This document shows, piece by piece, positions 3,048-50,313 of a DNA stretch of 64,000 nt (position 1 is the stretch's first letter; each line of letters starts with the position of its first letter). Location of the stretch: positions 3,927,249 through 3,991,248 of the forward strand of contig OZ025256.1 of NCBI GenBank assembly GCA_964019135.1. The letters are read 5' to 3'. The notes beneath the pieces are model-generated. The model was not told where the DNA came from. It ran no database searches and saw nothing but the letters and a program-made list of their open reading frames with translations. This DNA is from Arenicola marina. Its lineage: Eukaryota; Annelida; Polychaeta; Arenicolidae. Both the position numbers and the translations under genes were made by a program.

Positions 3048-3218
3048 GGGGTCGAGTGATGACCTTGACCTTCCCCGCCGGTACGCTGAAGGAGGACGCG
3101 GTCTACGAGTTGGCTTTGACAGAGGACATCGCGGGGGAGACCCAGCAACTCGCCAAACACACCCTCTACGTCAACGGGCCACCGCACGGAGGCACCTGCT
3201 CCATCACGCCACCCCGCG
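3048..3218 (+). CDS. PKD1-like exon 1 of window: REJ module part
   Basis: The acceptor is ttgttgccag and the donor is gtaaga; the exon starts and ends in phase 1. The translation runs GGRVMTLTFPAGTL to NGPPHGGTCSITPPR. The GG-x-C-x-(I/L)-x-P pattern is the REJ-module strand also found in human PKD1 (GGSCRLFPLG). Joined to the next exon it reads PPRGVALDVFHV without a break. Confidence 0.88.
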
Positions 3219-6200: not shown

Positions 6201-9200
6201 TGCCGAACAATAATTTGTATGTTTTTTATCTCGCCGCGGTTCTATACCCGGGGTCTGGACGGGATAAATGGCGACAGGCGACCCAGGCATATTTGACAAA
6301 TCGAGATTTGACATTGACCCCCAAATTCCGACACTAAGGATCTGGAAAATAGTTGCATTTTAGGAAAAGCGATAAAGAAGTTAGTTAAATGGCGACCCGG
6401 AACGTCGTGAAAAATCGACATTCGACAGTGAGAATTTTGCAATATTGACACTAGACACTGAACCCACCCTTCCAGATCCCTTATAGCGAATACCAGTAAA
6501 TGTTTTACCAGCATAACCGGATCAGTGTTGGCATGTCCGGCGCCGACAGCAAACAGAAAATTGTTTGTTGTCGGCGTCGGTTATGAGGTTTAAAGTGAAG
6601 CCGTTCTTTTTTTGGTGAGTGCCAAACAGTGGGGAGAGGGGGTGGGGGAGGGGCGAGGAAGGGCAGATGTTTGCTTGGGGTTTGTTTTCCAGGACGTACC
6701 CGGAGGGGTCCCTCTGAACCCCATAGAAGATCACATAAATAATTTACCAGTGGTTGTCTCCATCTGGCGCCGGAGTAGACCCAGTTATATAAATAATGAA
6801 GAAAACAGGTAATTCAGCAGAGAATTTCTCCTACCGCTTTATCAGCATATCTTGTGAATAGCCGGGTGGTCGACAGATGTCGATACCCATGGTACGTTAT
6901 CACTGAAGGCTTGCAACTATATGTTTTGAATATTGTATTTCAATTTAAATATCAAGGATACGTCATCTTGAAGTTGTTGTACATGTTGGCATTCATGACC
7001 TTCATATTGTAAGTTAGCTGATATTGCTCCATGGATATATCCGGGGTTATGTTCGCCAAGCCCGAAGATTAGCTCACGAACCAAATCCGGAGCCGCCTTG
7101 ATAGCTCAGTGGGTTAGAGCGCTCGAGTGTTATGGCCACCTGAGAGCCTATCGGTACGTGGATCGGTGGTTCGCGCCCTACTGTGGCCATGTCTGTGTGG
7201 TCGCAGGATAAAGATACCAGGTCTTTCTTCGTAAAGAGTATGGGGGTTACTCCCGGGGACATGGATCGACTCCCCCTTCCTTCACCCATGGACGCGATAT
7301 GACTAAAAGTGGTTAAAGCGTCCTGAATCTACAACCAACCAACCAATCAAGCACCAAATCCAAGCAACTGGTGCTTGGTTCAGACCCTACCTGTGCAAAT
7401 GTCGATGCGGGATAATAATTCCTTTGCAAAGAGTAGGCGTTTACTTTCGGAGACATGGTTCCTCTCAACCTGGACCCTCCCCATTGTCACAACATGACCT
7501 ACATTCCCAAACCAATCTTTAATGTGATTAGTTTTCTCACCGTCATAGATACGAGGTTGTCTGAGTATGCAAGACATCGAGCGATAAGCGTGTGGGAGTT
7601 TGCACAGTATGACTGACATACAAGCCACTGTAACAACACATATAGGCACACTAAACGCTCACCGTGGTAACTTCCCAATTGTATTGAAAGTACACACCTT
7701 AAAGCTGCCCATACATCAATTTTCCACTTACATTACACTTTGTTTTACAGATTTATTGGACACTTTGTTGGATTTGATTCGTGTTAACTCTTTCAACGTG
7801 TATGTGTATTGGTATTGTTCTCCACGGTAACAGGCTCACTATGGTAGCGATCTACATCGAGGACCAAAACACATCCTGTATAAAAACACATCCTATAATG
7901 TAAACGCTTCAAACGTTTCTTAGGGGCACGGGTGGCGGGGTGGAGGGGGGGGGGGACTGGGGGTGTTGCTGAATGAGCAACTTTACACAAACCAACATAA
8001 AATATTGGAGCTTTAGGCCAAGTGTGATGTGTACATGCACCCACACGTGGCTAATCTGGGCTAAGAAATCTCAGGGGACAATGACATGGGGCCGAATGTA
8101 GGGTACGCCAGGCGCCGGTGCCAGGGCGCGAACCCACGACCTGTTGTTCTGCAGCTCAACCTGCGTACCAACTGAGCTAAGGGTATTCCGAACGATCCCA
8201 TTGTTAATTTATGGTTAGTGACAACGCGCATTGATTAGCATGTTCTATAGAGCTCCACCCTCAACTAATGTCAGGAGGAGATACAAAAAGATAGGGGAGA
8301 AACATGTCTGAACGGTACACTGGCAGCTTAATCAGACACTGTAATCAAGTTCATGACGGGGCATCAGAGACCCTGCCTTTAAGTGTAGTCCCAATAAACA
8401 GGGGTCTGGATGGCTATGAATGGCGACACGCGACACAGACATAGTTGACATATCGACATGCGATATTGACCCCCGAATTTTAACACTGAGGATCTGAAAA
8501 ATCGACATCGACACAGATTTTTGAGAAAAAAAGCGACACTGAAATTAGCCCAAAAGCGACACGGAACGTCGTGAAAAAGCGACATTCGACACTGAGAATT
8601 TTGAAAAATCGACACTGGACACTTGACCGCCACCCCCCCCCCCCCCCCCCCCGCGCCCAACTCCCTTACAGACCCCTATAAACAGTGAGGACGTCCATTG
8701 GTCTGGTTTTCATTCACCAGGTGTCGCTTTGGATGTCTTCCACGTGTCCTGCAATGGCTGGGAGGATGACGGTGATCAACTACCGCCATCTAGCGGCGCA
8801 GACAATGCGGCGGAGATTGCTTACAGCTTTGAATACATGTTGCACGGCGAGTCCACCGCATTCTACACCACGACACCCATGCTACCACCAGGGGACGCCA
8901 ACAACGATTACACTCTGGTCGTCAAGGTCACCGTTGCGGATGTTTACAACACGGCGACGTCTGTGACGATAACTGTGCAGGTAAAAACGGACATGACCTT
9001 GGTGTAAGTAGGTCAAGCAATGACCTTGGTGTAAGTAGGTCCAGCAATGACCTTGGTGTAAGTAGGTCAAGCAATGATATTGGTATAATGACGTCATGCG
9101 CATGATCTTGATATAAGCGGAGCAAGCACATGCCCATTGTGTAAGTAGGTCTAACACTTGACATTGGTCAAAGTCATTCGCATGACCTTGCTTTAGGAAG

Positions 9201-12200
9201 GTCAAACGCATGACCTTGCTTTAGGACCAAGCTGGTGCAACTCATGTGTGCAAGTGTGGTTGTCCAGATAATGACGGAGGCCGCACTGCTATATGACACA
9301 GGGTTATCCATACCATACCGGGGTCCTCCCTGGTGTAGCGATAACAGTACGTCATGAACATTGGGGCATTGCTGCCGTCATTTGCCGCTATATATCGTGT
9401 ATCATATCTATGAAATATCTATTTCGTAGTTGACATAATGTACCTAAGATATTTCTTCAAAAGATTTCAAACCGCAGATGGAAAATTGTTGTACGATCAG
9501 CTTTAAATACATTTCGGGGTCAAACTGGCAATGCCCCAGGGTGTCAAACAACGCGTGGAACTGAATATAAGTGGATTTCGTCGAGCAAGAAACCGGAAGT
9601 CAATTTACGATCGACGGATACATAATCGACATATGTGTATATACATTTTAATTCATCATCAGTATGTCATTGCCCGTCAATAATACTATATGCTAAGTTT
9701 TTTAATATCAAATAAAATTATATAAAATAACCATATCTTATCACAAATCGCCCAAAACACCAATTAATGTCAATTCTCACCTTATGAGGGTGTTTGGCAG
9801 TCATTATCTCAATATCTTAATAATGTCGATCGTTATTCGGACAGATTGATCCAGCCACGAAAGACCTGTCGGATATGGTGTCTGGGTTTCTTGACCTTGA
9901 CCCCGCTCAGGCACTGCTCAGGTTTCTTGACCTTGACCCCGCTCAGGCACTGCTCAACCTGGACGATACCTTGGACTTTGTGACGGCCACCAGTAACGCC
10001 GTGACGTCACCGGAGCAGACGGAGACGGTGTGTTGGGGGAAGGTTGGGTGGGGGGGTGGGGGGGAGATGCCATGATGACCACGCGTTTGTATTGTACAGG
10101 TGTGGTCGGCCATGATGACCACGCGTTTGTATTGTACAGGTGTGGTCGGCCATGATGACCACGTGTTTGTATTGTACAGGTGTGGTCGGCCATGATGACC
10201 ACGTGTTTGTATTGTACAGGTGTCGGCCATGATTATCACGTGTTTGTATTGTACAGGTGTCGGCCATGATTATTACGTGTTTGTATTGTACAGGTGTGGT
10301 CGGCCATGATGACCGCGTGTTTGTATTGTACAGGTGTTGTTGGCCATGATGACCACGTGTTTGTATTGTACAGGTGTTGGGGCCCATGCTGGCCAAGATC
10401 GTCAGCATATCCACGGGGGTCACAAGTGTGTCATCACGGCTCAAACTAATGAGCACAGTGGACACAATTGTGCAGCGACTCGATCCGACGGTGGGATCTT
10501 TTGGAACTAAGGTAACGCCAGGGGCGGATCTAGTGGGAGGGGCGGGGGGGGGGGGGGGGAGGTGAACTCGAGCATACACTATAAAAGTCGGGTTTGCAAC
10601 CCTCTGGCGGACCCACCCCACTCAAGCAAGGTAATATTAGGATGTTTTTTTTTAGCTCAAAGTTAACTTCTATGGAAAATAAACAAATAAGAATGTGTTC
10701 CCATAGGAGGTTACAGATTCCTTCCACGAAATCACTTCTAAGGCGTTCGTCAAAGTACATGTGTGTGTATCCCCATTTGAGGTCACTTTCCTCGCTCACA
10801 GAATTTAAATTGGTAGGTGCGAAAATCATTTAAAGTTGTTTGAAGTTGAAATGTTTTCAATGACCCTTATTGAGGAAGAATACTGTTTTTCAAGACCACC
10901 TCCCACCCCCCCCCCCCCCAGTTTAAAAAGAAACATTAGTGGACCCCCGCGGTCATTTTCACCCCCCCCCCTCCCTTCCACCACGGGCCCCATGACATAT
11001 TTTTAGCGAGCAGAGGCCTGTCCGTCGCAACCCCTCCCTTTCCAGAGGCACTGACTAAACGTGCCATTTCTGTTTAGATATGATAATCTTAGCAATAGAT
11101 ATGACATAAATGCAATGGTCACGACTTCAGCAACCGTATCATCGGCCTGGCATTTTACCGTCTATTAAACGCCATCACTGGTGGCGAAATCTTGGTGCAT
11201 CCTACGACTCGCCCCCTTCCTCCCCCCCCCCATCTCAGCCCCCCCCCCTACCCTCTGACCCTCCCTCACTCACTAGCCCGGCGTTCTCCTGTTTCCGCCG
11301 CTCCAGGTCTTGGAGCATCCGACCACCCCCCACCCACCTCCCTGCCTCCCACCCCCTCACTCACCATATACTGAAACAATGCTTCACTTGCAGTCGACGA
11401 CTTTGACCTTTGTGTCTGACATGGTGGACCGCATGAATATCTCGGACTTGGATCCCAATACGCAAGTTGATTATGGCAACCGTGAGCCAACAGTTGATTA
11501 TGGCAACCGTGAGCCAACAATTGTTTCTTGGCTAGGTCATCTTCGCCTTTTATAAATTTAAATTTAAAATTTTCTGAAACGTCAATGTAATATTTACGAA
11601 CGGCAAGTATCTATCTCGTACCGATTTGAACTAGTAAAATTTATATTCCAACCTTCATCGGTAATTACCTAATGTATCTAAGTATCTTGATTTAAAATAA
11701 GGAAATGGCGATGGCTTTAGTTTGATGACGTAGGACACAAGAACGTCACAGTTTGATGACGTAGGACACAAGAACGTCACAGTTTGATGACGTAGGACAC
11801 AAGAACGTCACAGTTTGATGACGTAGGACACAGTCTGACATGTTGTCATGTCATACGAGTGAGATAAAGAGTGGCGCACAGGACGAATCCAAGACACGCC
11901 GTGTGCAGAAGTTGTGTAAAAAAAAAGTAAATAGTTAGGAATAGTGTATGAGTTGTTCATTCGGTTGACTGTATCGTTGTTTCCCTCACTCCCCAGAGGT
12001 ACTGGCGCTGCAGTCTTCCATCATAGGTCTGACGCAGGATGGAAGAGTTACAGGTAAGGCAAAGCGATTATACAAACCTATCAACGAGACGAGCCTAGAC
12101 GAGACCTTGACGAGACGAGCCTAGACGAAACCTTGATGAGACGAGCCTAGACGAGACCTTGATGAGATAAACGAGACGCAACGAGACGAGACGAGACCTT

Positions 12201-27200: not shown

Positions 27201-30200
27201 TCTACGGTATGAACCAGTCCATCAGCGACCTCGTGGCAGGCGGCTCCTCTGACGTCATCAAAGATAAGGTACGGAGTAACGGGCACACAGTGGTTTGATT
27301 CGTTTATTATAGTAACATATATCAGCTTTTGTCGTATAAATATTTGAACAGGATACATTGTATCCAGCCCTTGGATTGGCTTTCATGTGCAGGGCCGAAT
27401 CCAGGAATTTGAAAAAAAGGAGGGGAGGGGGGGATCCAAAATTGCAAAGCTCTGAACAAAATTGCGACCGGAGCATCCACCAATTTCGGACGACCGGCGG
27501 GGGGGGTCTTCTGAAAACTTGCGACGGGGGGGGGGGGGGGGCAGGGGTCCACGCCGAATAAGATAGCGTTCTTTCTCCGCCCTTTCATGTGACTTTAAGT
27601 CAAGAGTGGATATAACATAGAAACGAGATCATAGACACCGGTATTCCAATCTGTATTCATGATGATCCGTAATTTGCGCTTAATATTCATATGTACCATT
27701 ATAAAGCGGAAGTCACATGCTGGCGCAAGTGTTCCTAGTTACTCTTCGATTCGCTCCAGCTTAAAACTATTTCATTCAATTTTTCGAACGAACACGCCAC
27801 CAATTAACAAAAACGCTCATACGAAAAACACTGACGGATGCAAGTAATATAGACGTGTATGAACTATCACATTCTAAAGACATGAAATTGCCATTTCGAG
27901 AAAATTCCTGTAGCTCTATATTTCCAATGAAGGAGAAGTGTTTGTCAAGTGTTCCATCTTTCGACTCGGTGACTCGACCAACGATCACACGGCTAATCGG
28001 GGAATGTTAACATCATTCCCTTCAATGTTTAATGAGCTTCCCTATGTCGGGTTAGCCATTATGCATTGTAGACAGGTGGCCTGCAACTCTAAAGTATTCT
28101 TTGTCTATTTATGCCGTTGCCAGACACACAGTGGGTTCACTGTCTGGGCCTGGCTGCAGGAGAAGGCCATCCCAGCCGTTTTCTTCATGTTCCACTACAA
28201 CGGGGCCCCCACCACCAAGCGACAGCGGGCGTACCTGGGGGACGCCACCAACTACCGCGTGGGACCCCTCAGGCTGAGGCAGCTCCGGGTGAAGCCAGGT
28301 GAGTCTGATGGCCAAGAGACCGAGTGCAGCCAGGTGAGTTTGGTGGCCAAAAGACCGAGTGAAGCCAGGTGAGTGGGGTGGCCAAGAGACCGAGTGAAGC
28401 CAGGTGAGTGTGGTGGCCAAGAGACCCCTCAGGCTGAGGCGGCTCCGGGTGAAACCAGGTGAGTGTGGTGGCCAAGAGACCCCTCAGGCTGAGGCGGCTC
28501 CGGGTGAAACCAGGTGAGTGTGGTGGCCAAGAAACCCCACAAGCTGAGGCGGCTCCGGGTGAAACCAGGTGAGTGTGGTGGCCAAGAGACTCCTCATGCT
28601 GAGGCGGCTCCGGGTGAAACCAGGTGAGGTGGGTGGCCAAGAGACCGAGTGAAGCCAGGTGAGTGTGGTGGCCAAGAGACCGAGTGAAGCCAGGTGAGTG
28701 TGGTGGCCAAGAGACCCCTCAGGCCGAAGCAGCTCCGGGTGAAGCCAGGTGAGTGTGGTGGCCAGGAGACCGAATGAAGCCAGGTGAGTGGTGGCCAAGA
28801 GACCGAGTGAAGCCAGGTGAGTGGTGGCCAAGAGACCCTCAGGGTCTGTCGAACAGAAAGTACATGTTAAATCGTATTTAACCCTCTTCCAGACAGCTGC
28901 GATACGGTGAGCGCGATGCAGAAGTACATCATCCAGTGTAACGAGGACTACAGCCTGTTCACGGAAGAAGACCGGAACTACACGACAGACTGGTCCCTTG
29001 AACCGACCGCCAACTACACGGCCGAGCAACTGACGGGCCTGGAGAAGGCCTATAAGTACCACAGCTTCTTAGACCTGCGCGGGATCCCGTACTGGGGGAA
29101 GCTGGGTACCTATGGCGGCGGGGGCTACGTGGCGGACCTAGGGACGACTAGAAGCCAGGCCCTGAATATGATCAACCAGCTGATTGAACACAACTGGCTG
29201 GATAATTACACCAGGGCCGTGTTTCTCGAATTCACCACCTATAACCCGGCCAACGAGCTCTTCGCACAGGTCAGTGTAATCTGCGGTATTCTTCCCCACC
29301 TCCATCCGCCGCCATCGTTACTACGGTTTCTAATTTTGCTTCTAAATGGAAAGGCCAATGACTTTAGGTATTTAGGCTTTAGGAGTCCGGTAGACAAATA
29401 TGTTGTGGTAAGTTTTATTGCAGAAAGTTAAGGAATAGTCTGGCATTTATATTTAGGTATAGACCCTTCTCAATCAGACTGTTCATAATGAATGTGCAAA
29501 CTCCTCTCTGGATGACAGGCATGTACGGCTGCATTTTCAATTTAAAACTGTTATTCAGTGAGGGAAATGGCTGGGATTTTTTCTTTCATTTGCTTGATGG
29601 CCTGTTAGCCTATGCATTGTGCTCTGTTTGTTGTTCGTGAGATCACTGTTGATGGTGACAGGATTCGTAGTCTCTCACATCCAAATATACATCTCGACGC
29701 CGTATATGGCAATATGGCATATTCTTTCTTTTCATCCGCCACCTCCCAAGATAATTCATACCACACGCTACCGGCAACGATGAAATAACTACATCTGGGC
29801 CACGACAATATGCTCGCCCAAAGCCGCCCAATCTTTCCTTACGGACAGTATGTCGAATTATAGATGTTGACAAATCTATCCGCTAGGTGGAGTACCTGTT
29901 CGAGTTTCCGGCCATCGGCGGCGTGTTCCTCTTCCCTCGCGTGACGTCATTCGTGCTGTACACGAGTCTGGGCGGCATGAACACCATGGTGGTCATCGCG
30001 CAGCTGGTCTACGTGGGTCTCATCGTCTACTTCCTGGTGCGAGAGACCCTGGCCTTCAGGCGGGAACGCAAAGCGTACATGGCAGACCCCTGGAACTACC
30101 TGGAGATCAGCCTCATAGGGGTCTCCATCGGCGCCATCTCCATGTTCGCTCTCCGAGAGGGCATCGGGAGAATGGTTCTCGGGGACCTAGCGGAAGATCC

Positions 30201-33200
30201 CAGTAAGTTACGTCACTGTCGTTTTTGTGTAATTTTTGTGTAAAATTTCCATTGGTCTAAAACGATGTTTTGCATTTATATTAAGGTTACTCGTGCATCA
30301 ATATTTTCTCTCCGAAATGTCGAAATATATTTTTGAATGATGTATTTAGGTTAGTAGTGTATAATTATTACATGTGTACGTACGATATGCATTAAGTACC
30401 AGGGCATTTGGATAAGGTACTTGATTCAAATGTTATTCATCTAAGACAATGTTTTCCATTTATTTTAAGGAAATTTGAAATATATCTTGAAAGGAAATAA
30501 TGTACCTTGGCTCTTAGTGTTTAAGTGTGCATGTATATAATGCAATATATACCAGGGCATGTGCATAGGGTATTGGTATCTAAATTCAACAACATTCGGA
30601 TATCGCTAACGTTTTTGCCATTTAACAAACAATAAAACACCAATCACAGGATGTATCCAATGCGCTGCAAAAGATGTTGAAAATCAGACAGGTGCTGCAT
30701 GAGCAACTTGAGTTCATAATACTGAGAATTAAGGATTGAGAAGAGAATTTTTTTTTCGCTTTTTTATTTAATTTAATCGTCATTCAAATGTATTTGAACA
30801 CATAATGCCAATACAACAATCATATTCTACAATAACAAAATAAACATAGTCGAGTTTAGTTTTGTACTTAGAGCACTTCCGTGGCTGCGAAAATGTGTGC
30901 TTATAACATATTAATTACAATCGAAATTAGTTGCCAACATGTTTTGCCGTAATTAATGCTACAACAGGTGTGATGTTTAAGTCGCTAAACGTTTGTAATG
31001 ATTTTATGCTGGATTACTGAAATCATTCGCAAACCGCAAAAAAGATATTCGACTGTCTACCGAACAACCCCCATCAATTGATAGTAATACACTATATGAA
31101 CGTTTGTTTTTCGGTCATGAACATTTAGTTTCCTGGTCAATATAATAAGCTGTCCACACCCCAGGTTTTAACTCGGACCCGAGTACTTAATAAAATCTGG
31201 GTTATGTTCCTCCTTTATCGTCCACTGAGGTTTCCCAATTTAGTCCACGTGTGCTTAAACCACCTTTCATTACGTTTTAAAAAAATAATTAATTTTCCAC
31301 TTCCAGCTAAATACACGAACTTCATGGCCTTCTCAGCCTACGATGAGGTATACAGCTACTTGATTGGCACCATTGTCTTCATCGCCAACGTCAAGTTCCT
31401 GAGACTGCTGAGGTTCAACAAGCACGTGAACCACTTCGCCAGCACACTGCGCCTCTGTCGAAAAGAGCTGTGCTACTTCGGCATCACCGTCTTGATCATG
31501 TGCGCCGCGTTTGGCATCTTCGCCAACCAGGTGTTTGGCCGGACGATGGCTGATTTCGACACCATGGTCCACACGTTGGAATCGCTGTATGCCATGATGC
31601 TGGGGCGCTTCAACTTCCACATCATGGAGGGCACTGAGAGGTGATGTGGCTATTTGTGTAGAGGTCTACAAGGGGTACATGGCGGCATGGCGACACAGGC
31701 ATATTTCAAAAGTCGACATTCGACTTTGACCCCCAAATTCCGACATTGAGGATCTGAAAAAACGACATCGACACAGATAGTAGCATTTTACACCAAAAAA
31801 ACCGACATTCGACAAGGAGAATTTTGAAAAGTCGACACTGGACACTGGACACTTCCAGACCCCTATTTGTCAATGACTAGCTATCAATATATTATGCGTA
31901 ACAACATAAGCGTACCCCTCCCCTTCCTCGCGAATTGGTAACACCTGTTTTCCTCTAAAAAGAAGTAATATATATCAGTTATACACGCACACCATGGCGT
32001 ATTCTGGTAAGTATAATCATGAAATGCATGCTAAATAAAACTACAACAGGACGCGATGCTATCTCTCTCATAGCTGCTCATACCGGACCTACTTATATAT
32101 ATGTATTTTCACCCATATATAAATTATTCTACTCATTTATTGGACGCATTGTCTGATCTTATTAGTGCTAACTGTAATAAATGTATGTGTATTGAAATGT
32201 TTCGAATATTGGTAACAGGCAAAAAATGGGTGTCAGAATTTTGATGACGTAATGCGCAGACTTTATTTTGCATCATGCGAAAAAATGTTATATGAGTAAC
32301 TTAAAACTCTGTTTCGATAAAGTGTCACTTTTGCCTGACATAGAATGCGAAAATGGGGTGACATCGTGATATAATATGTATGCTACTTGCTGTCCATTAC
32401 AGAAATCTGGGTGCTCCGTTCTTCATGGTCTTCGTGTTCCTCGTGTACTTCACCACGGTCAACCTGTTCCTGGGCATCATCGGCACCGCTTACCACGACG
32501 TACGGCAAGCATACATTTCGTGTTGTAGCGTGTGTACAACACGTGTACAGTTTATACATGTACAGTGACTTTAAAGCACGTATTGAACATTCACATCATA
32601 TACTCCATCTGGACAGGCTATATATACAGAGCGAATGTAAAGCACGCATTGAACATTCACATCATATACTCCATGTATGCAGGCTATACATACAGAGCGA
32701 ATGCAAAGCACGCATTGAACATTCACATCATATACTCCATGTGGACAGGCTATACATACAGAGCGAATGTAAAGCACGCACTGAACATTCACATCATCAA
32801 CTCCTTGTGGACAGGCTATACATGCAGAGCGAATGTAAAGCATGCATTGAACATTCACATCATATACTCCATGTGGACAGGTTATACATACAGAGCGAAT
32901 GTAAAACACGCATTGAACATTCACATCATATACTCCATGTGGACAGGTTATACATACAGAGCGAATGTAAAACACGCATTGAACATTCACATAATATACT
33001 CCATGTGGGCAGGTTATACATACAGAGCGAATGTAAAGCACGTATTGAACATTCACATTATAAACTCCATGTGGACAAGCTATACATACAGAGCGAATGT
33101 AAAGCACGCATTGAACATTCACATCATATACTCCATGTGTACAGGCTATACATACAGGGCGAATGTAAAGCACGCATTGAACATTCACATCATATACTCC

Positions 33201-35258
33201 ATGTGGACAGGTTATACATACAGGGCGAATGTAAAGCACACATTGAACATTCACATCATATACTCCATGTGGACAGGTTATACATACAGAGCGAATGTAA
33301 AGCACACATTGAACATTCACATCATATACTCCATGTGGACAGGTTATACATACAGAGCGAATGTAAAGCACGCATTGAACATTCACATCATATACTCCAT
33401 GTGGACAGGCTATACATACAGGGCGAATGTAAAGCACACATTGAACATTCACATCATATACTCCATGTGGACAGGTTATACATACAGAGCGAATGTAAAG
33501 CACGCATTGAACATTCACATCATATACTCCATGTATACAGGCTATAAATACAGAGCGAATGTAAAGCACGTATTGAACATTCACATCATATACTCCATGT
33601 GGAGAGGCTATACATACAGAGCGAATGTAAAGCACGCATTGAACATTCACATCATATACTCCATGTGGACAGGCTATACATACAGAGCGAATGTAAAGCA
33701 CGCATTGAACATTCACATCATATACTCCATGTGTACAGGCCATACATACAGAGCGAATGTAAAGCACGCATTGAACATTCACATCATAAACTCCATCTGG
33801 ACAGGCTATACATACAGAGCGAATGTAAAGCACGCATTGAACATTCACATCATATACTCCATGTGGACAGACTATACATACAGAGCGAATGTAAAGCACG
33901 CATTGAACATTCACAACATACTTCATGCATACAACATGTGTGCAGCCTATATATGTACAGTGCATTTTAAGTACATATTGAGCATCCACAAATTGCTTTA
34001 ATTGTACAAACCAGTACGTGTACGAATATTGGATACTGTCAACGTCATTTAACGGTTCGAGATATTTTGTTCTTCCATGTTAATTTTTTGTAATTTGGGA
34101 TAAATCATGATGATTAAAAGGTTGGTTGGCTTTAATGGGGAGGCTTTCACCTGAGCAGGTCATATTTGCACAGGGAGGATAAGACCCACGCGCCTAGCTG
34201 CCGCTTGGGCTTACATAACAGAACACACTCGGAAATATCCAAACGCGCGGCCCTAGAGCGCTCGCTTTGAGTGCTCTGGCCACCTGAGAGCCTAACGGCA
34301 CGTGGATTGGTGGTTCGAGCCCCGATGTGGCCATGTACCTCTGTGTGGTCGCAGGATAAAGATCTCATGTCCTTCTTCGCAAAGAGTAGGAGGTTATCCC
34401 CGGAGACATGGCTCCGCTCTCCCTTCCTTCTCCCATTGACGCGATATGACCAAAAGTGGTTGAAGCGTTCTGAGTATACAACCAAACAGCCGACCACGCG
34501 CTGCCAACTAGGCCACATTGCGACTCAGTATTGATGACGTGTTCTTCCTCTCTAGATCCGGATGAAACCAGATCTCCAGAGCGACGAGTACCGGATCCTC
34601 GACTTCCTGATCCAGAAAGCCAAACAGTGGTTGAGTCCGCGTCGGCAGGACAAAGGTCATAACTTACAAGGTCATAACTTACAAGGACATAACTTGCAAG
34701 GTCATAACTTACAAGGTCATAACTTACAAGGTCATAACTTACGAGGTCATAATTTACAAGGTCATAACTTACAAGGTCATCACTTACAAGGTCATGACTT
34801 ACAAGGTCATAATTTACAAGGTCATAACTTACAAGTTGGATTTGCTCTCCATATTCAAGTTCAGTTTAGAGTTCATTTGTATATATGTATCTATACCATA
34901 AAAACGGGAAGGTATTTTGTAAGTTAAGATACTCAACTCATGATGTAGACCGGCTGCGTCAATCTGGTATATTATAGGCCTACATGCGTATGTATCAGTT
35001 GTCATTGTTTTTTTGTGTGGAAACAGTGCTCTCTTCTCTGAAAGAACTATTGTTACTGTCATTTTCAACGTTTCTTTCCGTATTTTAGGGCCGGGCGAAG
35101 ATCGTAATCTTGCTGGTGCCGGTCGCCATAATTCTCGACCGTGCCTTCCCCTGGTGGCGGACGAGATGACACAGTGCTCAGCGAAAGATCGTATCGACCT
35201 CTGCGATGAACTGAACTTGCGCATTGCCGCGCTCGACCGCATGCTGTCACTGCAGTAG
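3048..35258 (+). CDS. Polycystin-1-family receptor/channel gene, 26 exons, 5' part outside window
   Basis: This is a polycystin-1-like membrane protein (PKD1/PKD1L/PKDREJ/suREJ group), expected at the plasma or ciliary membrane and often partnered with a PKD2-type channel. The joined exons give 5,267 nt, which after the initial split codon is 1,754 codons plus TAG. Every junction is phase-compatible with GT/AG ends. Domain order: end of REJ module (exons 1-2), linker (exons 3-12), GRRRRAL plus GPS cysteines (exons 13-14), TM1 (exon 14), PLAT (exons 15-16), TM2-5 (exons 17-18), TM6 (exon 19), polycystin domain with WLDNYTRAVFLEFT (exons 20-21), channel core (exons 22-24) and tail (exons 25-26). 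Exon 1 starts inside a codon, so the N-terminus is upstream. Colinearity with human PKD1 from GPS to pore is clear by eye. The exact orthology (PKD1, PKD1L1, L2, L3 or a lineage-specific copy) is not resolved. Confidence 0.93.
4213..5437. mobile_element. Non-autonomous DNA transposon with GGGGCCAGTTTCACGAA ends
   Basis: Perfect inverted ends GGGGCCAGTTTCACGAA sit 1,225 bp apart, with many subterminal cttcgtacga blocks at both ends and no transposase frame. It interrupts another repeat: the flanks gcgatctcccgg and gggcgttacgcttgcgcc are adjacent in the uninterrupted copy at 19276. The target duplication is short (about 3 bp, CCT). Confidence 0.85.
4983..5137. mobile_element. Short inverted-repeat element inside the 1.2-kb transposon
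   Basis: The outer arms aatagcgcgagttttgc and gcaaactcgcgctatt, and inner arms ttcattttcattatc and gataatgaaaatt, form a compact MITE-like fold. Confidence 0.6.
5438..5545. mobile_element. Right half of the interrupted GATCTCCCGG MITE
   Basis: gggcgttacgcttgcgccat, cctctgccccacgtcaaatt and the following sequence match 19287-19390 closely. The left end is at about 4199-4212. The rest of the element is missing. Confidence 0.72.
5597..5811 (+). mobile_element. Family A SINE
   Basis: The head is gccgcctcgatagctcagtg, with B box ggttcgagccccg and body tcgcaggataaagatcccat, followed by a decayed tail. Part of the region between A and B boxes is missing compared with the copy at 50058. Confidence 0.85.
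6247..6487 (+). mobile_element. CGACA-type MITE copy
   Basis: It starts cggggtctggacgggataaa and ends cacccttccagatccctta, with internal runs of gacattgacccccaaattcc. Similar ends are inverted. Confidence 0.62.
7089..7352 (+). mobile_element. Family A SINE with 9-bp target duplication
   Basis: The head is agccgccttgatagctcagt, with the B-box region ggttcgcgccc and tail cctgaatctacaacc followed by (aacc)n. It is flanked by ACCAAATCC at 7080-7088 and 7353-7361. Confidence 0.88.
7390..7500 (+). mobile_element. Family A SINE body fragment
   Basis: Diverged sequence (gcaaagagtaggcgtttact, ggagacatggttcctctcaa) matches the body of family A without the tRNA head. Confidence 0.5.
8055..8190 (-). 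mobile_element. tRNA-derived SINE (family B)
   Basis: On the minus strand: cttagctcagttggtacgca (A box) and caggtcgtgggttcgcgccc (B box). The acceptor stem does not pair as in a functional tRNA. Confidence 0.7.
8399..8678. mobile_element. CGACA-type MITE, best copy
   Basis: The ends ggggtctgg and cagacccc are inverted repeats. The interior alternates gcgacacgcgacacagacat, cgacattcgacactgagaat and similar phased CGACA motifs, then a C run. No coding potential. Confidence 0.7.
8721..8980 (+). CDS. PKD1-like exon 2: REJ module part
   Basis: The acceptor is cattcaccag and the donor is gtaaaa; start phase 1, end phase 0. It contains VSCNGWEDDG, corresponding to the ECTGWHDAED stretch of human PKD1, then PPGDANNDYTLVVKVTV and TSVTITVQ, the closing beta-strands of the REJ/FN3-like fold. 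No frame break. Confidence 0.9.
8983..9230 (+). repeat. Minisatellite just inside intron 2
   Basis: The unit is about 27 bp, built on tgaccttggtgtaagtagg, with three close copies followed by diverged ones. It starts within a few bases of the exon 2 donor, and each close copy carries a donor-like GTAAGT. Confidence 0.8.
9845..10027 (+). CDS. PKD1-like exon 3: linker with internal 36-bp duplication
   Basis: The acceptor is ttattcggacag and the donor gtgtgt; phase 0 at both ends. It encodes IDPATKDLSDMVSGF, then two adjacent copies of the 12-residue block FLDLDPAQALL(R/N). The DNA copies at 9886-9921 and 9922-9957 are nearly identical. This linker lies between REJ and GPS. Confidence 0.82.
10066..10373 (+). 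repeat. Minisatellite carrying copies of the exon 4 acceptor
   Basis: The unit is about 40 bp, with seven copies ending at the true exon 4 boundary. Each copy includes ttgtattgtacag, the same acceptor used by exon 4, followed by gtgtggtcggccatgatg. That resembles the first 20 bases of exon 4 (gtgttggggcccatgctg). Confidence 0.9.
10374..10511 (+). CDS. PKD1-like exon 4: linker
   Basis: The acceptor is ttgtattgtacag and the donor gtaacg; phase 0 at both ends. It encodes VLGPMLAKIVSISTGV to LDPTVGSFGTK, part of the helical linker preceding the GPS in polycystin-1 proteins. Confidence 0.82.
10518..10620. mobile_element. G-rich MITE-like fragment
   Basis: It begins with CAGGGGCGGATCTAG and continues into a long G run. 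Similar sequence with a matching inverted end is present at 38683-38853. Only one clear end is visible here. Confidence 0.4.
11394..11481 (+). CDS. PKD1-like exon 5: linker, donor duplicated
   Basis: The acceptor is gcttcacttgcag. It encodes STTLTFVSDMVDRMNIS and ends at AACC|GTGAGC in phase 1, joining exon 6 as a Gln codon. A 27-bp tandem copy gives a second identical donor after 11508, also in phase 1. Its use would add nine residues. Confidence 0.75.
11465..11518 (+). repeat. 27-bp tandem duplication spanning the exon 5 donor
   Basis: Two adjacent identical copies occupy 11465-11491 and 11492-11518, each containing AACCGTGAGC. The length is a multiple of three, so either donor keeps the frame. 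Confidence 0.9.
11723..11835 (+). repeat. 31-bp minisatellite with TGACGTAGG
   Basis: There are three full copies plus a partial copy of a unit containing cagtttgatgacgtagg and aagaacgt, inside intron 5. The TGACGT core is shared with other arrays in the window. Confidence 0.9.
11997..12053 (+). CDS. PKD1-like exon 6: short linker exon
   Basis: This 57-bp exon has acceptor ccctcactccccag and donor gtaagg, phase 1 at both ends. It encodes VLALQSSIIGLTQDGRVT. It is accepted because it keeps the frame between exons 5 and 7. Confidence 0.75.
12085..12376 (+). repeat. GACGAG-type pentameric satellite
   Basis: Degenerate repeats of gacga/gacta/gacct motifs (agacgagacc) fill nearly all of intron 6. 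Confidence 0.88.
12426..12541 (+). CDS. PKD1-like exon 7: charged linker
   Basis: The acceptor is gctgtgttcgtag, chosen because it gives phase 1 to match exon 6. An earlier tatag at 12388 would give phase 0. The donor is gtgagt. The exon encodes AIQKAAEAELDQDVPV and an acidic/basic stretch ending ERRKQEQAEL, likely helical. Confidence 0.75.
12585..12640 (+). repeat. Partial copy of exon 7 3' end with its donor
   Basis: About 50 bp matching exon 7 bases 12492-12541 (ggatgcaccaagacctggag and following) recurs 93 bp downstream and ends in CTG|GTAAGT. That donor is a better consensus match than the original GTGAGT. Confidence 0.88.
13166..13297 (+). CDS. PKD1-like exon 8: linker
   Basis: The acceptor is ttctcctttaag and the donor gtaggc; phase 0 at both ends. 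It encodes VRKTLQTFENMLKKLPDEM to LSVTLDKGK. The donor is immediately followed by a minisatellite that repeats it. Confidence 0.82.
13298..13885 (+). repeat. 25-bp minisatellite made from the exon 8 donor
   Basis: About 22 copies of ggcatgctggcaaccc plus acacaggta. The array begins exactly at the exon 8 donor (gtaggcatgctgg), and nearly every unit carries CACACAG|GTAGG or a GTAAGC variant, so each unit resembles both an acceptor and a donor. Confidence 0.93.
13904..14029 (+). CDS. PKD1-like exon 9: linker
   Basis: The acceptor is tttgttctaccag and the donor gtacac; phase 0, 42 codons. It encodes AKDLDGASYSTSRSSVV, then KVTDALLNSAQDAGEAD and ALVVQ. Confidence 0.85.
14150..14330. mobile_element. 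G-rich MITE-like fragment in intron 9
   Basis: A long G/C-run element ends with CTGGATCTGCCCCTG, the inverse of the CAGGGGCGGATC end found elsewhere. It lies about 20 bp before exon 10. Confidence 0.4.
14350..14472 (+). CDS. PKD1-like exon 10: linker
   Basis: The acceptor is acgttattatccag and the donor gtacgt; phase 0, 41 codons. It encodes VAYSAINMFSLDET to DAILELDNFN. Confidence 0.85.
14514..14834. mobile_element. pogo/Tigger-like MITE with TA target duplication
   Basis: The inverted ends are CAGTGGAACCCCGCTTTAAG at the left and AATAGAGGGGTTCTACTG at the right, flanked by TA on both sides. It is 321 bp with no transposase frame. The TIR style and TA duplication fit the pogo/Tigger group of Tc1/mariner. 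Confidence 0.78.
15095..15250 (+). repeat. 22-bp minisatellite with AGTGACGTAGA
   Basis: About six copies of tagtgacgtagagctccaca lie in intron 10 just upstream of exon 11. The unit carries a TGACGT core. Confidence 0.9.
15317..15496 (+). CDS. PKD1-like exon 11: beta-rich linker before GPS
   Basis: The acceptor is gtttgtccgccag and the donor gtgtgg; phase 0, 60 codons. It encodes MAVAVDQVGGEED, NMTNATVDDNTGMVYLHV and ILRPGEAEDPGLGFQ. Two N-glycosylation sequons (NMT, NAT) agree with an extracellular location. Confidence 0.86.
15612..15778 (+). repeat. 21-bp minisatellite in intron 11
   Basis: About seven copies of ttgcattcattgcaataaat. Confidence 0.92.
15885..16357 (+). repeat. Array of exon 12 acceptor copies
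   Basis: About eight units of 55-65 bp precede the true acceptor. Each has a pyrimidine-rich cccgcccctccccctgacag or a close variant. The first unit continues with GTCTATTTGAAGAT, a near copy of the exon 12 start GTCTATGTGAAGAT. Confidence 0.92.
16358..16526 (+). CDS. PKD1-like exon 12: extracellular segment before GPS
   Basis: The acceptor is cccccgacag and the donor gtgagt; start phase 0, end phase 1. It encodes VYVKMGAEDAVLDKPNV, FPNYSRTDPWQLVIPGD and PPGMYLGILPV. Segments of this kind directly precede the GPS in polycystin-1 proteins. It also has NYS and NVT sequons. Confidence 0.88.
16560..16885 (+). repeat. Degenerate tandem repeat, about 60 bp unit
   Basis: Five diverged copies contain ccatgcaatcgaaacagaaa and an agacatattatcaccaatga tail, in intron 12. 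Confidence 0.75.
17030..17130 (+). mobile_element. tRNA-derived SINE fragment (family B)
   Basis: A B-box-like sequence (caggtcgtgggttcgcgccc) follows a degraded A-box region. The same family is seen in reverse at 8055-8190. Confidence 0.55.
17255..17455. mobile_element. GGGCCC-ended MITE
   Basis: It starts at gggccctt and has internal alternating blocks of catgtcgcatgtcga and A-rich spacers. It is related to the better preserved copy at 57388-57608. Confidence 0.5.
17555..17705 (+). repeat. Three tandem copies of the exon 13 acceptor
   Basis: Three 70-71 bp copies of tgtggcgacagacggtgat plus cggaggctgggggcgtgagt occur with acag acceptors at 17564, 17634 and 17705. The third is the real exon 13 start. 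The copies include about 25 bases of exon 13 coding sequence. Confidence 0.92.
17706..17893 (+). CDS. PKD1-like exon 13: tetrabasic site and GPS first half
   Basis: The acceptor is tgtgccgacag and the donor gtgagt; start phase 1, end phase 0. It encodes DSEAGGGRRRRALGAEE, a furin-like tetrabasic site, then PAFGFSAAFSRCRAWDE and DMWEGDTCK. These hold the first GPS cysteines and tryptophans (C-x-x-W, W, C). NGT and NGS sequons are present. Confidence 0.9.
18822..19070 (+). CDS. PKD1-like exon 14: GPS second half and TM1
   Basis: The acceptor is ctctcgcgtcag and the donor gtcagt; phase 0, 83 codons. It encodes VSESSTLNQTVCDCSRMS, the GPS C-x-C pair. Human PKD1 has CLCNHLT here, so the cleavage tripeptide reads R-M-S instead of H-L-T. 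The first membrane helix LLAILLVYLLLAVW follows, then a basic cytoplasmic stop (ARRADRRDVEK). Confidence 0.92.
19115..19840 (+). repeat. 21-bp TGACGTAA minisatellite, split by a MITE
   Basis: About eight copies of agtggtcagataatgacgta run to 19275 and resume at 19782-19840 after an inserted MITE. The core TGACGTAA is an ATF/CREB-type site sequence. Confidence 0.88.
19276..19781. mobile_element. GCGATCTCCCGGCAGAGGGCG MITE with 8-bp target duplication
   Basis: This 506-bp element starts at gcgatctcccggcagagg and ends cgccctctgcaggcagtg, an imperfect inverted end. It is flanked by AATGATGT at 19268-19275 and 19782-19789. The duplicated 8 bp belongs to the minisatellite it landed in. Eight-bp duplications are typical of hAT elements. 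There is no transposase frame. Confidence 0.82.
20009..20179 (+). CDS. PKD1-like exon 15: PLAT domain first half
   Basis: The acceptor is atatatgttttgcag; phase 0, 57 codons. It encodes YYKVSVYTGLRKHAGTKS, KVFFILGGKYGDTGVRAM and DDGKNK, matching the start of the PLAT/LH2 sandwich (YEILVKTGW...GTTAHVGI in human PKD1). The exon-proximal donor GTTGGA is weak. Many better copies follow in the adjacent array. Confidence 0.92.
20130..20905 (+). repeat. Tandem copies of the exon 15 3' end and its donor
   Basis: Some eleven units of about 70 bp each hold gtccgggccatggacgacgg plus caagaacaag and a donor (GTAAGG, GTGAGA, GTGAGG or GTCAGA), separated by G-rich spacer. The exon part is the last 40-45 bases of exon 15. 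Confidence 0.95.
21034..21194 (+). CDS. PKD1-like exon 16: PLAT domain second half
   Basis: The acceptor is cgtcgcgttgcag and the donor gtaaaa; start phase 0, end phase 2. It encodes ASIRVFILSTERPLGTLSF, IRLWHDDSGKSAHAGWFL and DKVVFEDL, matching human PKD1 IRVWHDNKG...AWFLQHVIVRDL. Confidence 0.94.
21899..22703 (+). CDS. PKD1-like exon 17: post-PLAT region and TM2-TM5
   Basis: This is the largest exon (805 bp), with acceptor ccctcctcctctccctccag and donor gtacac; start phase 2, end phase 0. YFFLCSRWLALDEDDGQVD matches the end of PLAT. HLWLSVAARPSKSSFTRLQR matches human HIWLSIWDRPPRSRFTRIQR. Membrane helices: CIVTLLFSTMVVNAMFY, a paired LLLSVFSALIVVPINTVIV, WWMIYVAWTVALATTAVS, and the start of LFLATAESILVIQPVK. 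A loop between them (about 90 residues) ends in a basic KKRWWKKK. Confidence 0.95.
22704..24240 (+). other. Intron 17 first part, no gene recognised
   Basis: No splice-supported coding sequence. It contains G and C homopolymers near 23695 and 24080 and a short direct duplication around ttttgtaggtgtctatttta (23900-23970). Confidence 0.5.
23505..23590 (+). mobile_element. Family B SINE fragment
   Basis: Decayed tRNA-like head (cagatcaacaggtcggggtt) and body (aagtttcatcctgtcctatg). Confidence 0.4.
24241..24815 (+). repeat. 140-bp higher-order TGACGT repeat before exon 18
   Basis: Four copies of a 140-bp unit (landmark aataatcattgcgtcataat at 24361, 24501, 24641 and 24781) are themselves built from ctgttccactgcgtcatgac monomers. 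They include the full palindrome TGACGTCA and end 20 bp before the exon 18 acceptor. Confidence 0.92.
24835..24967 (+). CDS. PKD1-like exon 18: end of TM5 and acidic loop
   Basis: The acceptor is catgctattgcttcag and the donor gtcagt; start phase 0, end phase 1. VVMVAVAMAILFKTLE continues the helix from exon 17 (QPVK). An acidic loop follows (EDDDDDADAAKNATPAADEE). In human PKD1 the equivalent ends PDEDDTLVE. Confidence 0.88.
25000..25246 (+). mobile_element. tRNA-derived SINE (family A) with 10-bp target duplication
   Basis: The tRNA-like head has an A box (gtagctcagtgggtta) and a B box (ggttcgagccccg), followed by the family body and a tail ending cctgaatatacaacc. It is flanked by CCCCTCCATT at 24990-24999 and 25247-25256. 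It is inserted 33 bp after exon 18. Confidence 0.9.
25394..26775 (+). repeat. 22-bp TGACGTTT satellite after exon 18
   Basis: About 60 copies of tttgttccactgcgtcatga plus cg. A recurrent variant (tcttttcaactacgtcacaa) marks higher-order units. The monomer is the same as in the array on the other side of exon 18. All + frames stay open because of the repeat, which is not coding evidence. Confidence 0.95.
27021..27268 (+). CDS. PKD1-like exon 19: cytoplasmic segment and TM6
   Basis: The acceptor is attatgccaacag and the donor gtacgg; start phase 1, end phase 0. SLEKSRQKRVYERRMW precedes the helix LLEVAFYFLFLLLICFIAW, then GSLYGMNQSISDLV. This equals human PKD1 KEEARKVKRLHGMLRSLLVYMLF... leading into the TOP domain. 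Confidence 0.92.
27391..27560. mobile_element. G-rich MITE-like element in intron 19
   Basis: Begins cagggccgaatccaggaatt, followed by G runs and internal aaaattgcgaccggagcatc. It is similar to elements near 14150 and 38683. Confidence 0.4.
28124..28298 (+). CDS. PKD1-like exon 20: start of polycystin (TOP) domain
   Basis: The acceptor is atgccgttgccag and the donor gtgagt; start phase 0, end phase 1. It encodes FTVWAWLQEKAIPAVFF, then YLGDATNYRVGPLRLRQL and RVKP. The GPLRLRQLRVKP segment matches human PKD1 GPPRLRQVRLQE, the first strand of the TOP domain. Confidence 0.93.
28268..28850 (+). repeat. Tandem copies of the exon 20 3' end and donor
   Basis: More than ten units repeat gaagccag|gtgagtgtgg, several preceded by ctcaggctgaggcggctccg, which is the last 30 bases of exon 20. 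Almost every unit keeps the CAG|GTGAGT donor. Confidence 0.95.
28893..29269 (+). CDS. PKD1-like exon 21: polycystin (TOP) domain core
   Basis: The acceptor is taaccctcttccag and the donor gtcagt; start phase 1, end phase 0. It includes YGGGGYVADLGTTRSQAL and EHNWLDNYTRAVFLEFTTYN, matching human PKD1 YDSGGYVQELG...LHNWLDNRSRAVFLELTRYS. Cysteines (SCDT, IIQCNED) and N-glycosylation sequons are present. Confidence 0.96.
29887..30202 (+). CDS. PKD1-like exon 22: end of TOP domain and first channel helices
   Basis: The acceptor is atctatccgctag and the donor gtaagt; start phase 0, end phase 1. VEYLFEFPAIGGVFLFPRV corresponds to the LEFPAAGRAL / LVEFPATGG motif of PKD1 and PKD2. The helix VVIAQLVYVGLIVYFLV follows, then RKAYMADPWNYLEISLIG, where the W-N/D beginning S2-S3 is typical of polycystins. 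Confidence 0.95.
30203..31306 (+). other. Intron 22, AT-rich, with a partial internal duplication
   Basis: No gene is seen. Two diverged copies of a segment around taccagggcat (near 30400 and 30550) suggest an old tandem duplication of about 155 bp. Confidence 0.6.
31307..31640 (+). CDS. PKD1-like exon 23: S4-S5 and pore
   Basis: The acceptor is attttccacttccag and the donor gtgatg; start phase 1, end phase 2. It encodes TNFMAFSAYDEVYSYLIG, VKFLRLLRFNKHVNHFAS and TLRLCRKELCYFGITVLIM, matching PKD2 KLFKFINFNRTMSQLSTTM. The pore segment is SLYAMMLGRFNFHIM, where PKD2 has ILGDINF: Arg replaces the filter Asp. Confidence 0.95.
31664..31866. mobile_element. CGACA-type MITE copy in intron 23
   Basis: It has internal cgacattcgactttgacccc and gaggatctgaaaaaacgaca, ending cttccagaccccta. 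Same family as 8399-8678. Confidence 0.6.
32403..32499 (+). CDS. PKD1-like exon 24: S6 helix
   Basis: The acceptor is tgtccattacag and the donor gtacgg; start phase 2, end phase 0. It encodes NLGAPFFMVFVFLVYFTT, then VNLFLGIIGTAYHD, the pore-lining helix (PKD2 LLNMFLAIINDTYSEV). Confidence 0.94.
32555..33965 (+). repeat. 66-bp minisatellite in intron 24
   Basis: About 21 copies of a 66-bp unit containing gcgaatgtaaagcacgcatt and catatactccatgtggacag. As 66 is divisible by three, long open frames (up to 489 codons) arise on both strands by chance of the unit. Confidence 0.96.
34250..34486 (+). mobile_element. Family A SINE, 5'-truncated, in intron 24
   Basis: It contains cacctgagagcctaacggca, the B box ggttcgagccccg and the tail ttctgagtatacaacc. 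The A-box end is missing. Confidence 0.82.
34556..34655 (+). CDS. PKD1-like exon 25: cytoplasmic tail
   Basis: The acceptor is ttcttcctctctag; start phase 0, end phase 1 at CAAAG|GTCATA. It encodes IRMKPDLQSDEYRILDF and LIQKAKQWLSPRRQDK. AYHD|IRMKPDL aligns with the post-S6 region of PKD1/PKD2 (TYSEVKSDL). Confidence 0.85.
34641..34838 (+). repeat. 15-bp repeat starting on the exon 25 donor
   Basis: About thirteen copies of aaggtcataacttac start exactly at the exon 25 boundary AAAG|GTCAT. Each unit therefore carries another AAG|GTCAT. Confidence 0.93.
35089..35258 (+). CDS. PKD1-like exon 26: C-terminus and stop
   Basis: The acceptor is tttccgtattttag, entering in phase 1 and ending at TAG. 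It encodes GPGEDRNLAGAGRHN, then AKDRIDLCDELNLRIAALD and RMLSLQ. The last 25 residues have heptad-like hydrophobics, consistent with a short coiled coil as in the tails of polycystins. Confidence 0.83.
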
Positions 35259-40669: not shown

Positions 40670-41149
40670 CAGCCTAGGTTAACAGAACATCTATACGTGA
40701 ATGTCAAAAAAAGGCCTGCCTCCAAACTCAACCGCGTAGAATGATCCATATAAGGATAAGATGGCTTGTACACAAGACACAATAATGACAGAAATACGTG
40801 CATACACAAAATGGGTAGATACCCAAATACGAAAATACATGTACGAAAATCGGTAAATGCGTAAATGCACAGATACTAAAAACATGGATACGTAGATACA
40901 CAGGCAAATAAAGGCTTTAATACCGGGTCATTCTACGATAAGTGAATAATTAAGGTCCTGCCTAGGAAATCAAGATAAAAAATCGTATTTGGGCCTGATA
41001 GTTTCATTTTGTTGGCCAATTAAATCAAGGTCATCAACAGCATATGTTTTATTCTGGCCAGAAATCTCCGGGTTATATATTATTCGGAATGAAAGAGTCA
41101 TATATGGCCAATAATGACCTGTCCCAGAAGTTCCAGTGGCCCTGACGTC

Positions 41150-44100: not shown

Positions 44101-45115
44101 GACGGGGCCATCCCGATGACGCCTGCAGTGGGTATGACGTCATCATGACGGCGCGGTCTCGATGACGCCTGCAGTGGGTCTGACGTCGCCATGACGGCGC
44201 GGTCTCGTTGACCCCTGCAGTGGGTATGACGTCATCATGACGGCGCGGTCTCGTTGACGCCTGCAGTAGATCTGACGTCATCATGACGGGGCCATCCCGA
44301 TGACGCCTGCAGTGGGTATGACGTCACCATGACGGCGCCATCCTGCTGACGCCTGCAGTAGATCTGACGTCATCATGACGGGGCCATCCCGATGACGCCT
44401 GCAGTGGGTATGACGTCATCATGACGGCGCGGTCTCGATGACGCCTGCAGTGGGTCTGACGTCGCCATGACGGCGCGGTCTCGTTGACCCCTGCAGTGGG
44501 TATGACGTCATCATGACGGCGCGGTCTCGTTGACGCCTGCAGTAGATCTGACCTCATCATGACGGGGCCATCCCGATGACGCCTGCAGTGGGTTTGACGT
44601 CACCATGACGGCGCCATCCTGCTGACGCCTGCAGTAGATCTGACGTCATCATGACGGGGCCATCCCGATGACGCCTGCAGTGGGTATGACGTCGTCATGA
44701 CGGCGCGGTCTCGATGACGCCTGCAGTGGGTCTGACGTCACCATGACGGCGCCATCTCGCTGACGCCTGCAGTGGGGGTCTGACGTCACCATGACGGGGC
44801 CATCCTGCTGACGCCTGCATTGGGTCTGACGTCACCATGACGGGGCCATCCCGCTGACGCCTGCAGTGGGTGTGACGTCATCATGACGGCGCGGTCTCGT
44901 TGACACCTGCAGTGGGTCTGACGTCGCCATTACGGCGCGGTCTCGTTGACGCCTGCAGTGGGTCTGAGGTCACCGTGACGGAGCCATCCTGCTGACGCCT
45001 GAAGTGGGTATGACGTCACCATGACGGTGCCGTTCCGCTGACGACTGAAGTGGGTCTGACGTCATCATGAGGGCGCGGTCTCGTTGACGCATGCGATGGG
45101 TGTGAGGTCATCCTG
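41150..45115 (+). repeat. 46-bp satellite with TGACGTCA, about 85 copies
   Basis: The unit is gacgcctgcagtgggtctga, cgtcaccatgacggcgcggt and ctcgtt (46 bp). Variants of the last third (gcggtctcgtt, gccatctcggt, gccatcccgct) alternate. Many units carry the full palindrome TGACGTCA and a nearby ATGACGG. Three units make 138 nt, so the minus strand shows repeated short open frames. Confidence 0.97.
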
Positions 45116-50057: not shown

Positions 50058-50313
50058 GGGCCGCCTCGATAGCTCAGCGGGTTCGAGCGCTCGCCTCGAG
50101 TGCTCTGGCCACCTGAGAGCCTAGCGTCACGTGAATGGGTGGTTCGAACCCCGCTGTGGCCATGTCTATGGGGTCTCAGGATAAAGATCCCAAGTTCTTC
50201 TTCGCAAAGAGTAGGGGGTTGCTACCGGGGACATGGCTCCTTTCTCCTTTCCTTCTCCCATTGACGCGATATGACCAAAAGTTGTTAAAGCGTCCTGACT
50301 ATACAACCTACAA
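50058..50313 (+). mobile_element. Family A SINE, long copy
   Basis: Complete head gccgcctcgatagctcagcg, middle gctctggccacctgagagcc, B box ggttcgaaccccg, body and tail cctgactatacaacc. Confidence 0.88.

Follow-up and report, generated by a model that had tools for sequence, protein, structure and literature searches.

Why should so many exon-intron boundaries of one gene be copied in tandem, and does the pattern tell us about splice sites or about the genome around them? We address this question in a window of 64,000 nucleotides, the whole stretch of DNA analysed here, which lies at C9:3927249-3991248 of an 867 Mb assembly in 762 contigs. The first-pass annotation of the window had described a single gene with at least nine such boundaries, read the arrays as centred on splice sites by some mechanism, and named the "mirages" of amphioxus as a parallel.

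The gene, its paralogue and the host

The gene is of the polycystin-1/REJ type, a relative of the human kidney-disease gene PKD1. We assembled the 26 exons present in the window (Table 1) from splice signals and one continuous frame. In this model the introns are GT-AG, a single open frame runs throughout, and the spliced product has Pfam matches to REJ, PLAT, Polycystin_dom and PKD_channel. Because the match enters the REJ profile midway, the gene must start before the exon numbered 1 here, its 5' end lying outside the window on the upstream side. For exon 5, the donor has to be the one at 11481/11482, because the alternative GT at 11466 puts a stop in the frame of exon 6.

The exons can be aligned to an intact paralogue on the same chromosome, 36 Mb away, in which all 26 exons are recognisable and exons 19 and 20 are fused. 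Along 1,480 aligned residues the two proteins are 71% identical, and differences are seen at 151 of 551 four-fold sites, both comparisons being made without exons 3, 19, 20 and 26 and with exon 6 mis-phased. A spliced-aligner check on part of the paralogue returned the junctions of our manual exons 1-13 (exon 6 having been placed only approximately by hand) plus one small doubtful exon.

Several other features of these loci deserve mention. Exon 3 contains a perfect 36-bp duplication (window 9885-9956) that doubles 12 amino acids in frame, and its second copy is missing from the aligned exon of the paralogue. Exon 22 (29887-30202) has 95.6% DNA identity to the paralogue, compared with about 72-89% for the other aligned exon pieces; local gene conversion is a possible cause. 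A dispersed repeat of ~240 bp, common to the paralogue region, occurs at window positions 5593-5805, 7100-7342, 25007-25245, 34254-34488 and 50058-50311; its start resembles a tRNA by eye, and ARAGORN found no tRNA in the window. Elsewhere in the assembly (G000:C11:28484371-28698593, L015-L020), three near-identical segments at ~100 kb spacing carry two polycystin-domain matches each; comparison of 3.4-kb pieces gives about 96-99.8% identity.

The lineage of the host was read from contig C762 (15,942 bp), which is mitochondrial. In its COX1, AGA stands at positions typical of serine and ATA at positions typical of methionine, and the gene order is F-E-P-T-nad4L-nad4-C-M-rrnS-V-rrnL-L-A-S-L-nad1-I-K-nad3-S-nad2-cox1-N-cox2-D-atp8-Y-G. 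We derived this order by tRNA calling and translation in two pieces, with the rRNA genes and atp8 placed by gaps only and two extra tRNA candidates (inside nad4L and in the rrnL gap) discounted. A position of nad3 between nad1 and nad2 is described as seemingly limited to annelids and their kin (PMC2639372), and a leech mitochondrion is reported with the same cox1-N-cox2-D-atp8-Y-G run (PMC9957428). Judged by its mitochondrial gene order, the host is most likely an annelid. The same order rules out an amphioxus host, and a search for an amphioxus-type fluorescent protein came back empty, which is weak evidence by itself.

Tandem copies at nine junctions

All nine junctions named in the first-pass annotation (at exons 4, 5, 7, 8, 12, 13, 15, 20 and 25) are indeed duplicated in tandem, with 2-23 copies each (Table 1). 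Copies were counted by a mismatch search in register with each junction, the authentic copy included. Of the 82 copies, 75 retain GT or AG, bearing out the earlier observation that splice consensus is kept. TRF called eight of the nine arrays and missed the exon 7 duplication. At 9/9 junctions, the open frame and the alignment with the paralogue place the authentic site at the first donor copy or the last acceptor copy. Introns 8, 15 and 20 consist mostly of array sequence, the exon 8 donor array alone occupying almost the whole of intron 8. Each added copy of the exon 25 unit would insert about GHNLQ, and because the array keeps an open frame, use of a later donor could lengthen the protein tail.

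Table 1. Position of the gene, its nine duplicated junctions and other arrays in the window
Feature	Positions	Strand	Unit and copies	Remarks
Polycystin-1/REJ-type gene	3048..35258	+		26 exons in window; stop at 35258; 1,754 aa
Exon 4 acceptor array	10069..10377	+	40 bp, 8 copies	Authentic junction 10373/10374 = last copy
Exon 5 donor duplication	11465..11523	+	27 bp, 2 copies	Junction 11481/11482 = first copy
Exon 7 end and donor	12494..12639	+	2 copies, 92 bp apart	Junction 12541/12542; by eye and mismatch search, no TRF call
Exon 8 donor array	13296..13875	+	25 bp, 23 copies	Junction 13297/13298
Exon 12 acceptor array	15935..16357	+	56 bp, 8 copies	Junction 16357/16358 = last copy
Exon 13 acceptor array	17553..17729	+	70 bp, 3 copies	Junction 17705/17706 = last copy
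Exon 15 end and donor array	20141..20918	+	About 71 bp, G-rich, 11 copies	Junction 20179/20180 = first copy
Exon 20 end and donor array	28285..28843	+	35 and 55 bp, 13 copies	Junction 28298/28299 = first copy
Exon 25 donor array	34653..34835	+	15 bp, 12 copies	In frame, open
27-bp array	8993..9151	+	27 bp	Begins 13 bp past exon 2 donor; junction not inside
21-bp array	19112..19272	+	21 bp	Begins 42 bp past exon 14 donor; also in paralogue (7.6 vs 19.6 copies)
140-bp array	24254..24819	+	140 bp	Stops 15 bp short of exon 18 acceptor
22-bp array	25397..26775	+	22 bp, 63 copies	Within intron 18, not near a junction
66-bp array	32572..33920	+	66 bp, 20 copies	Within intron 24; donor 73 bp away
46-bp array	41134..45110	.	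46 bp, 86 copies	Behind gene; arrays not confined to gene

Arrays are also common away from these junctions. By TRF, arrays make up 29% of intron sequence in the gene, 4% of exon sequence and 24% of the 28.7 kb that follow it, and there are 0.95 arrays per kb of non-array DNA in the gene versus 0.46 behind it (n=23 and 10). Separately, the hexamer TGACGT occurs 263 times in the window, compared with 31.8 expected; it is present in 8 of 35 arrays with different units, and 41 copies lie outside arrays.

Junction arrays in other genes

The earlier description of a single gene proved too narrow, since junctions are arrayed in the paralogue and in unrelated myosin genes as well. The paralogue has 19 copies at the exon 4 acceptor, 3 at the exon 5 acceptor, 3 at the exon 9 acceptor, 4 at the exon 15 donor and 5, partly dispersed, at the exon 17 donor. 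Only at exon 4 and exon 15 is the same junction arrayed in both genes. Units of the exon 4 array share 86% identity across the two genes, compared with 89-90% inside either one. Among the nine junctions, TRF placed an array in the paralogue over that of exon 4 only; at exons 7, 13 and 15 its arrays lie 4, 24 and 5 bp from the junction. Intron 24 of the paralogue (L007-L014) contains a 13.8-kb array with 15-16-bp units.

Genes with a myosin head served as an independent sample. This sample is not random: at least 77 matches (from 65 of 168 candidates scored) were grouped into 18 clusters, and stretches from 8 of the 18, chosen for their closely spaced exons, were used. The spliced aligner placed 72 introns and 65 were kept, those dropped having a donor score <3, a length <60 bp or adjoining masked bases. 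Eight of the 39 arrays in the myosin introns span a junction, seven of them at donors, with 2 to 83 copies. The large donor arrays have 83 copies of a 28-bp unit, 35 of 42 bp, 12 of 32 bp and 7 of 37 bp, and units range over 19-124 bp in the myosin junction arrays as a whole, compared with 15-92 bp in the window gene. Two further donor arrays were seen by eye and not counted, both with nine copies: one on C11, which continues up to the end of the stretch examined, and one on C1, at an exon missed by the aligner. One of the two has a 33-bp unit and one a 36-bp unit.

The density of junction arrays differs greatly between genes. The 29 introns of other polycystin loci, sampled as 3-kb pieces that favour short introns and with duplicate or overlapping loci removed, contain 2 arrays, none at a junction. 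Likewise, 15 kept introns of a muscle-type myosin contain five small arrays, none at a junction. This gene, assigned to the muscle type by sequence (L048-L049, C4:367001-386000), has two sets of four near-identical exons and is nearly array-free.

Are junctions preferred?

The answer depends on the expectation used. Of the 23 TRF arrays in the window gene, 7 strictly enclose a junction (the exon 12 array ends exactly at its junction), where 1.8 would be expected from random seed units (P 0.001), 1.9 from random placement in intron space (P 0.002) and 4.6 if each array is re-dropped within its own intron (P 0.11). The paralogue has 3 of 28 against 3.0, 1.8 and 3.0 expected, respectively. Arrays within 30 bp of a junction, or touching it, number 10 of 23 in the window gene (3.3 expected in intron space, P 0.001; 7.6 in the own intron, P 0.11) and 8 of 28 in the paralogue (2.9, P 0.006; 5.4, P 0.14). 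The suggestion that arrays crowd within 30 bp of junctions thus holds in the two polycystin genes against the intron-space null but not against the own-intron null.

One rule applied to the pooled samples gives 18 junction-spanning arrays among 90, versus 9.7 expected (P 0.004), leaving 72 that span none. Donors account for 12 (4.8 expected, P 0.002) and acceptors for 6 (4.8 expected, P 0.35); the paralogue contributes 3 of 28 against 3.5 expected. All counts exclude arrays with a unit <10 bp, two of the 23 window arrays that are wholly exonic were left out of the pooled count, and the start of paralogue exon 6 is one base off (43446; correct 43445) in it and in the test that follows. As the window gene was noticed for its arrays, the fair test omits it, and 11 of 69 arrays then span a junction versus 7.7 expected (P 0.13), with 7 at donors versus 3.9 (P 0.08). 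Restricting this test to arrays of at least 100, 200 or 300 bp, on either side, gives uncorrected P values of 0.055, 0.016 and 0.09.

We also looked for duplication at the level of single bases. A near copy within 1.5 kb exists for 24% of the window gene's intronic 30-mers, 3.5% of the exonic ones and 9-10% of those in junction-adjacent bins, so that duplication slopes toward the junctions without peaking there. The first myosin set shows duplication of 5 among 30 30-mers centred on a junction, compared with 27% of intron bases. Nor do junction arrays differ clearly from others in copy number (median 5.65 vs 3.75, P 0.36).

A two-fold preference for donors is therefore possible but not proven, and the birth of arrays targeted to splice sites is unproven. 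The earlier argument that arrays centred on splice sites imply a mechanism is only weakly supported: introns are rich in arrays throughout, junction 30-mers are duplicated less often than intron interiors, and significance is lost without the discovery gene.

Origin of the arrays

The arrays are probably mirage-type minisatellites that are tolerated as by-products of a minisatellite-rich genome, some of which catch an exon edge. The genome would readily make and expand short tandem duplications in non-coding DNA, and an exon edge would occasionally be included. Such a duplication should be tolerated when one intact edge stays beside the exon, extra donors landing downstream and extra acceptors upstream, in the intron. 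The spliceosome would keep using the exon-adjacent site (the first donor or the last acceptor) and the message would stay intact. Slippage or unequal exchange could then expand the copies until they fill introns such as 8, 15 and 20. If acceptor duplications are less well tolerated, a donor bias would arise without splice-targeted mutation. The donor excess may reflect such a difference in tolerance or a mutational preference, and the counts fit both alike. This reading draws on the arrays and their copies, on the paralogue and myosin cases, and on introns and DNA behind the gene that are similarly rich in arrays.

Alternatively, splice sites themselves, mainly 5' and less so 3', might seed duplications, for example through R-loop breaks, stalled complexes at the boundary or microhomology between donor-like motifs. 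The pooled donor excess, next to an acceptor count close to expectation, points this way, as do the excess within 30 bp in both polycystin genes (against one of two nulls) and the big donor arrays of unrelated myosin genes, with up to 83 copies. We nevertheless consider junction-targeted birth unlikely: the excess is not significant once the discovery gene is omitted, even at donors; bases at the junctions of the window gene show no peak; the paralogue has no more spanning arrays than expected; and neither of the 2 arrays in 29 other polycystin introns lies at a junction. It seems quite unlikely, too, that minisatellites of this annelid lineage arise preferentially at 5' splice sites by way of transcription or splicing, with the arrays growing and setting intron length and in-frame copies at exon 25 (and exon 5) able to vary the protein.

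The copies might instead be kept by selection for redundant splice sites, buffering mutation or serving alternative splicing. The intact GT/AG of most copies would fit this idea, as would the units at exons 5 and 25, which are multiples of three and keep the frame, that of exon 25 being open as well. However, one extra unit of 40, 25, 35/55, 56, 70, 71 or 92 bp would cause a frameshift, and the in-place donor of exon 15 scores below all ten downstream copies. Useful redundancy should make the splice motif persist longer than the remainder of the unit. We ranked conservation inside the 11 arrays with at least four copies, on a scale from 0 for the strongest conservation, with 0.5 for no effect; exon 15, with its varying period, was mis-registered, and exon 12, with three copies, was left out. 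The mean rank is 0.38 for the 9-base splice window, slightly better than neutral (significance not tested), and 0.57 for GT/AG, which is conserved no better than the other bases of the unit. Because splice motifs rank so near neutral, the retained consensus is largely a matter of the general similarity of copies. Conservation within the arrays thus gives no clear support to the selection proposed in the first-pass annotation, which we regard as very improbable.

The age of the introns bears on a further possibility. Introns are reportedly born by tandem duplication of AGGT-type exon segments (a Rogers-type model), and the arrays could then be the remains of new introns. That introns 8, 15 and 20 are largely array would agree with this, and potato offers a precedent, a tandem duplication across an intron-exon boundary (PMC4974935). 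Yet all nine introns are also present in the paralogue, where a TRF array covers the exon 4 junction only, and 6 of 10 further polycystin loci have an intron at residue 1290-1291, where intron 20 lies. Because the introns are shared in this way, the arrays are younger than the nine introns and did not create them. On the evidence of the paralogue, this mode of intron birth is rejected for the nine introns, and we give it hardly any credence. Intron 19 (window 27269-28123) has a different history: it is missing from the paralogue and was probably lost there, since L018 carries an intron at that place (residue 1230).

It is very unlikely that the repeat copies are an artefact, collapsed or inflated by the assembly, on which the exact copy numbers do rest, as copies differ from one another in most arrays and the diverged paralogue has the same exon 4 unit in a different copy number (19 vs 8, from one haplotype).

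Implications and comparison with known systems

Such structures at high density would mean that splicing tolerates dozens of near-exact donor copies and that introns are open to rapid remodelling. If the few genes sampled are a guide, the genome should hold numerous natural experiments on the choice that the spliceosome makes between almost identical sites lying side by side, and on a possible contribution of these arrays to intron gain.

Related duplications are known from other organisms. In the potato case, a new intron is described as having arisen (PMC4974935), whereas the introns of the window gene are older than their arrays. Within annelids, minisatellites are reported in intron 1 of earthworm metallothionein (PMC12783039). 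These resemble the present arrays in being large, intronic and different between duplicates; they are described inside intron 1, and the portion of that account consulted mentions none that span a junction (PMC12783039). We found no report of junction-spanning arrays in annelids in the open-licence PMC literature, which does not prove their absence.

The closest parallel is with the amphioxus mirages, described in Adh3, the globins BflGb6 and BflGb9, troponin C and PGBD5 (PMC3087553, PMC3902484), with units given as 10-72 bp in Adh3 and about 150-160 bp in the globins (PMC3087553). The comparison was apt as to structure, if not as to host. As far as the published descriptions go, both are minisatellite-like, span the exon-intron boundary at donors and acceptors, and keep AG/GT in many, not all, copies; the unit lengths found here also fit. 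Amphioxus splicing was judged from RT-PCR which, together with the Adh3 data, suggests that mirages leave it undisturbed (PMC3087553, PMC3902484), whereas for the annelid arrays the open frame that runs across all junctions supports undisturbed splicing only indirectly. Unlike in amphioxus, the host is an annelid, nine arrays occur in one gene with more in unrelated genes, and copies reach 83 at one donor. The novelty here lies in the phylum, in how densely the arrays occur and in how many copies they hold. Mirage-like arrays look like a feature of a second phylum rather than a one-gene peculiarity, and their density in an annelid would mean that any genome rich in intronic minisatellites can give rise to them.
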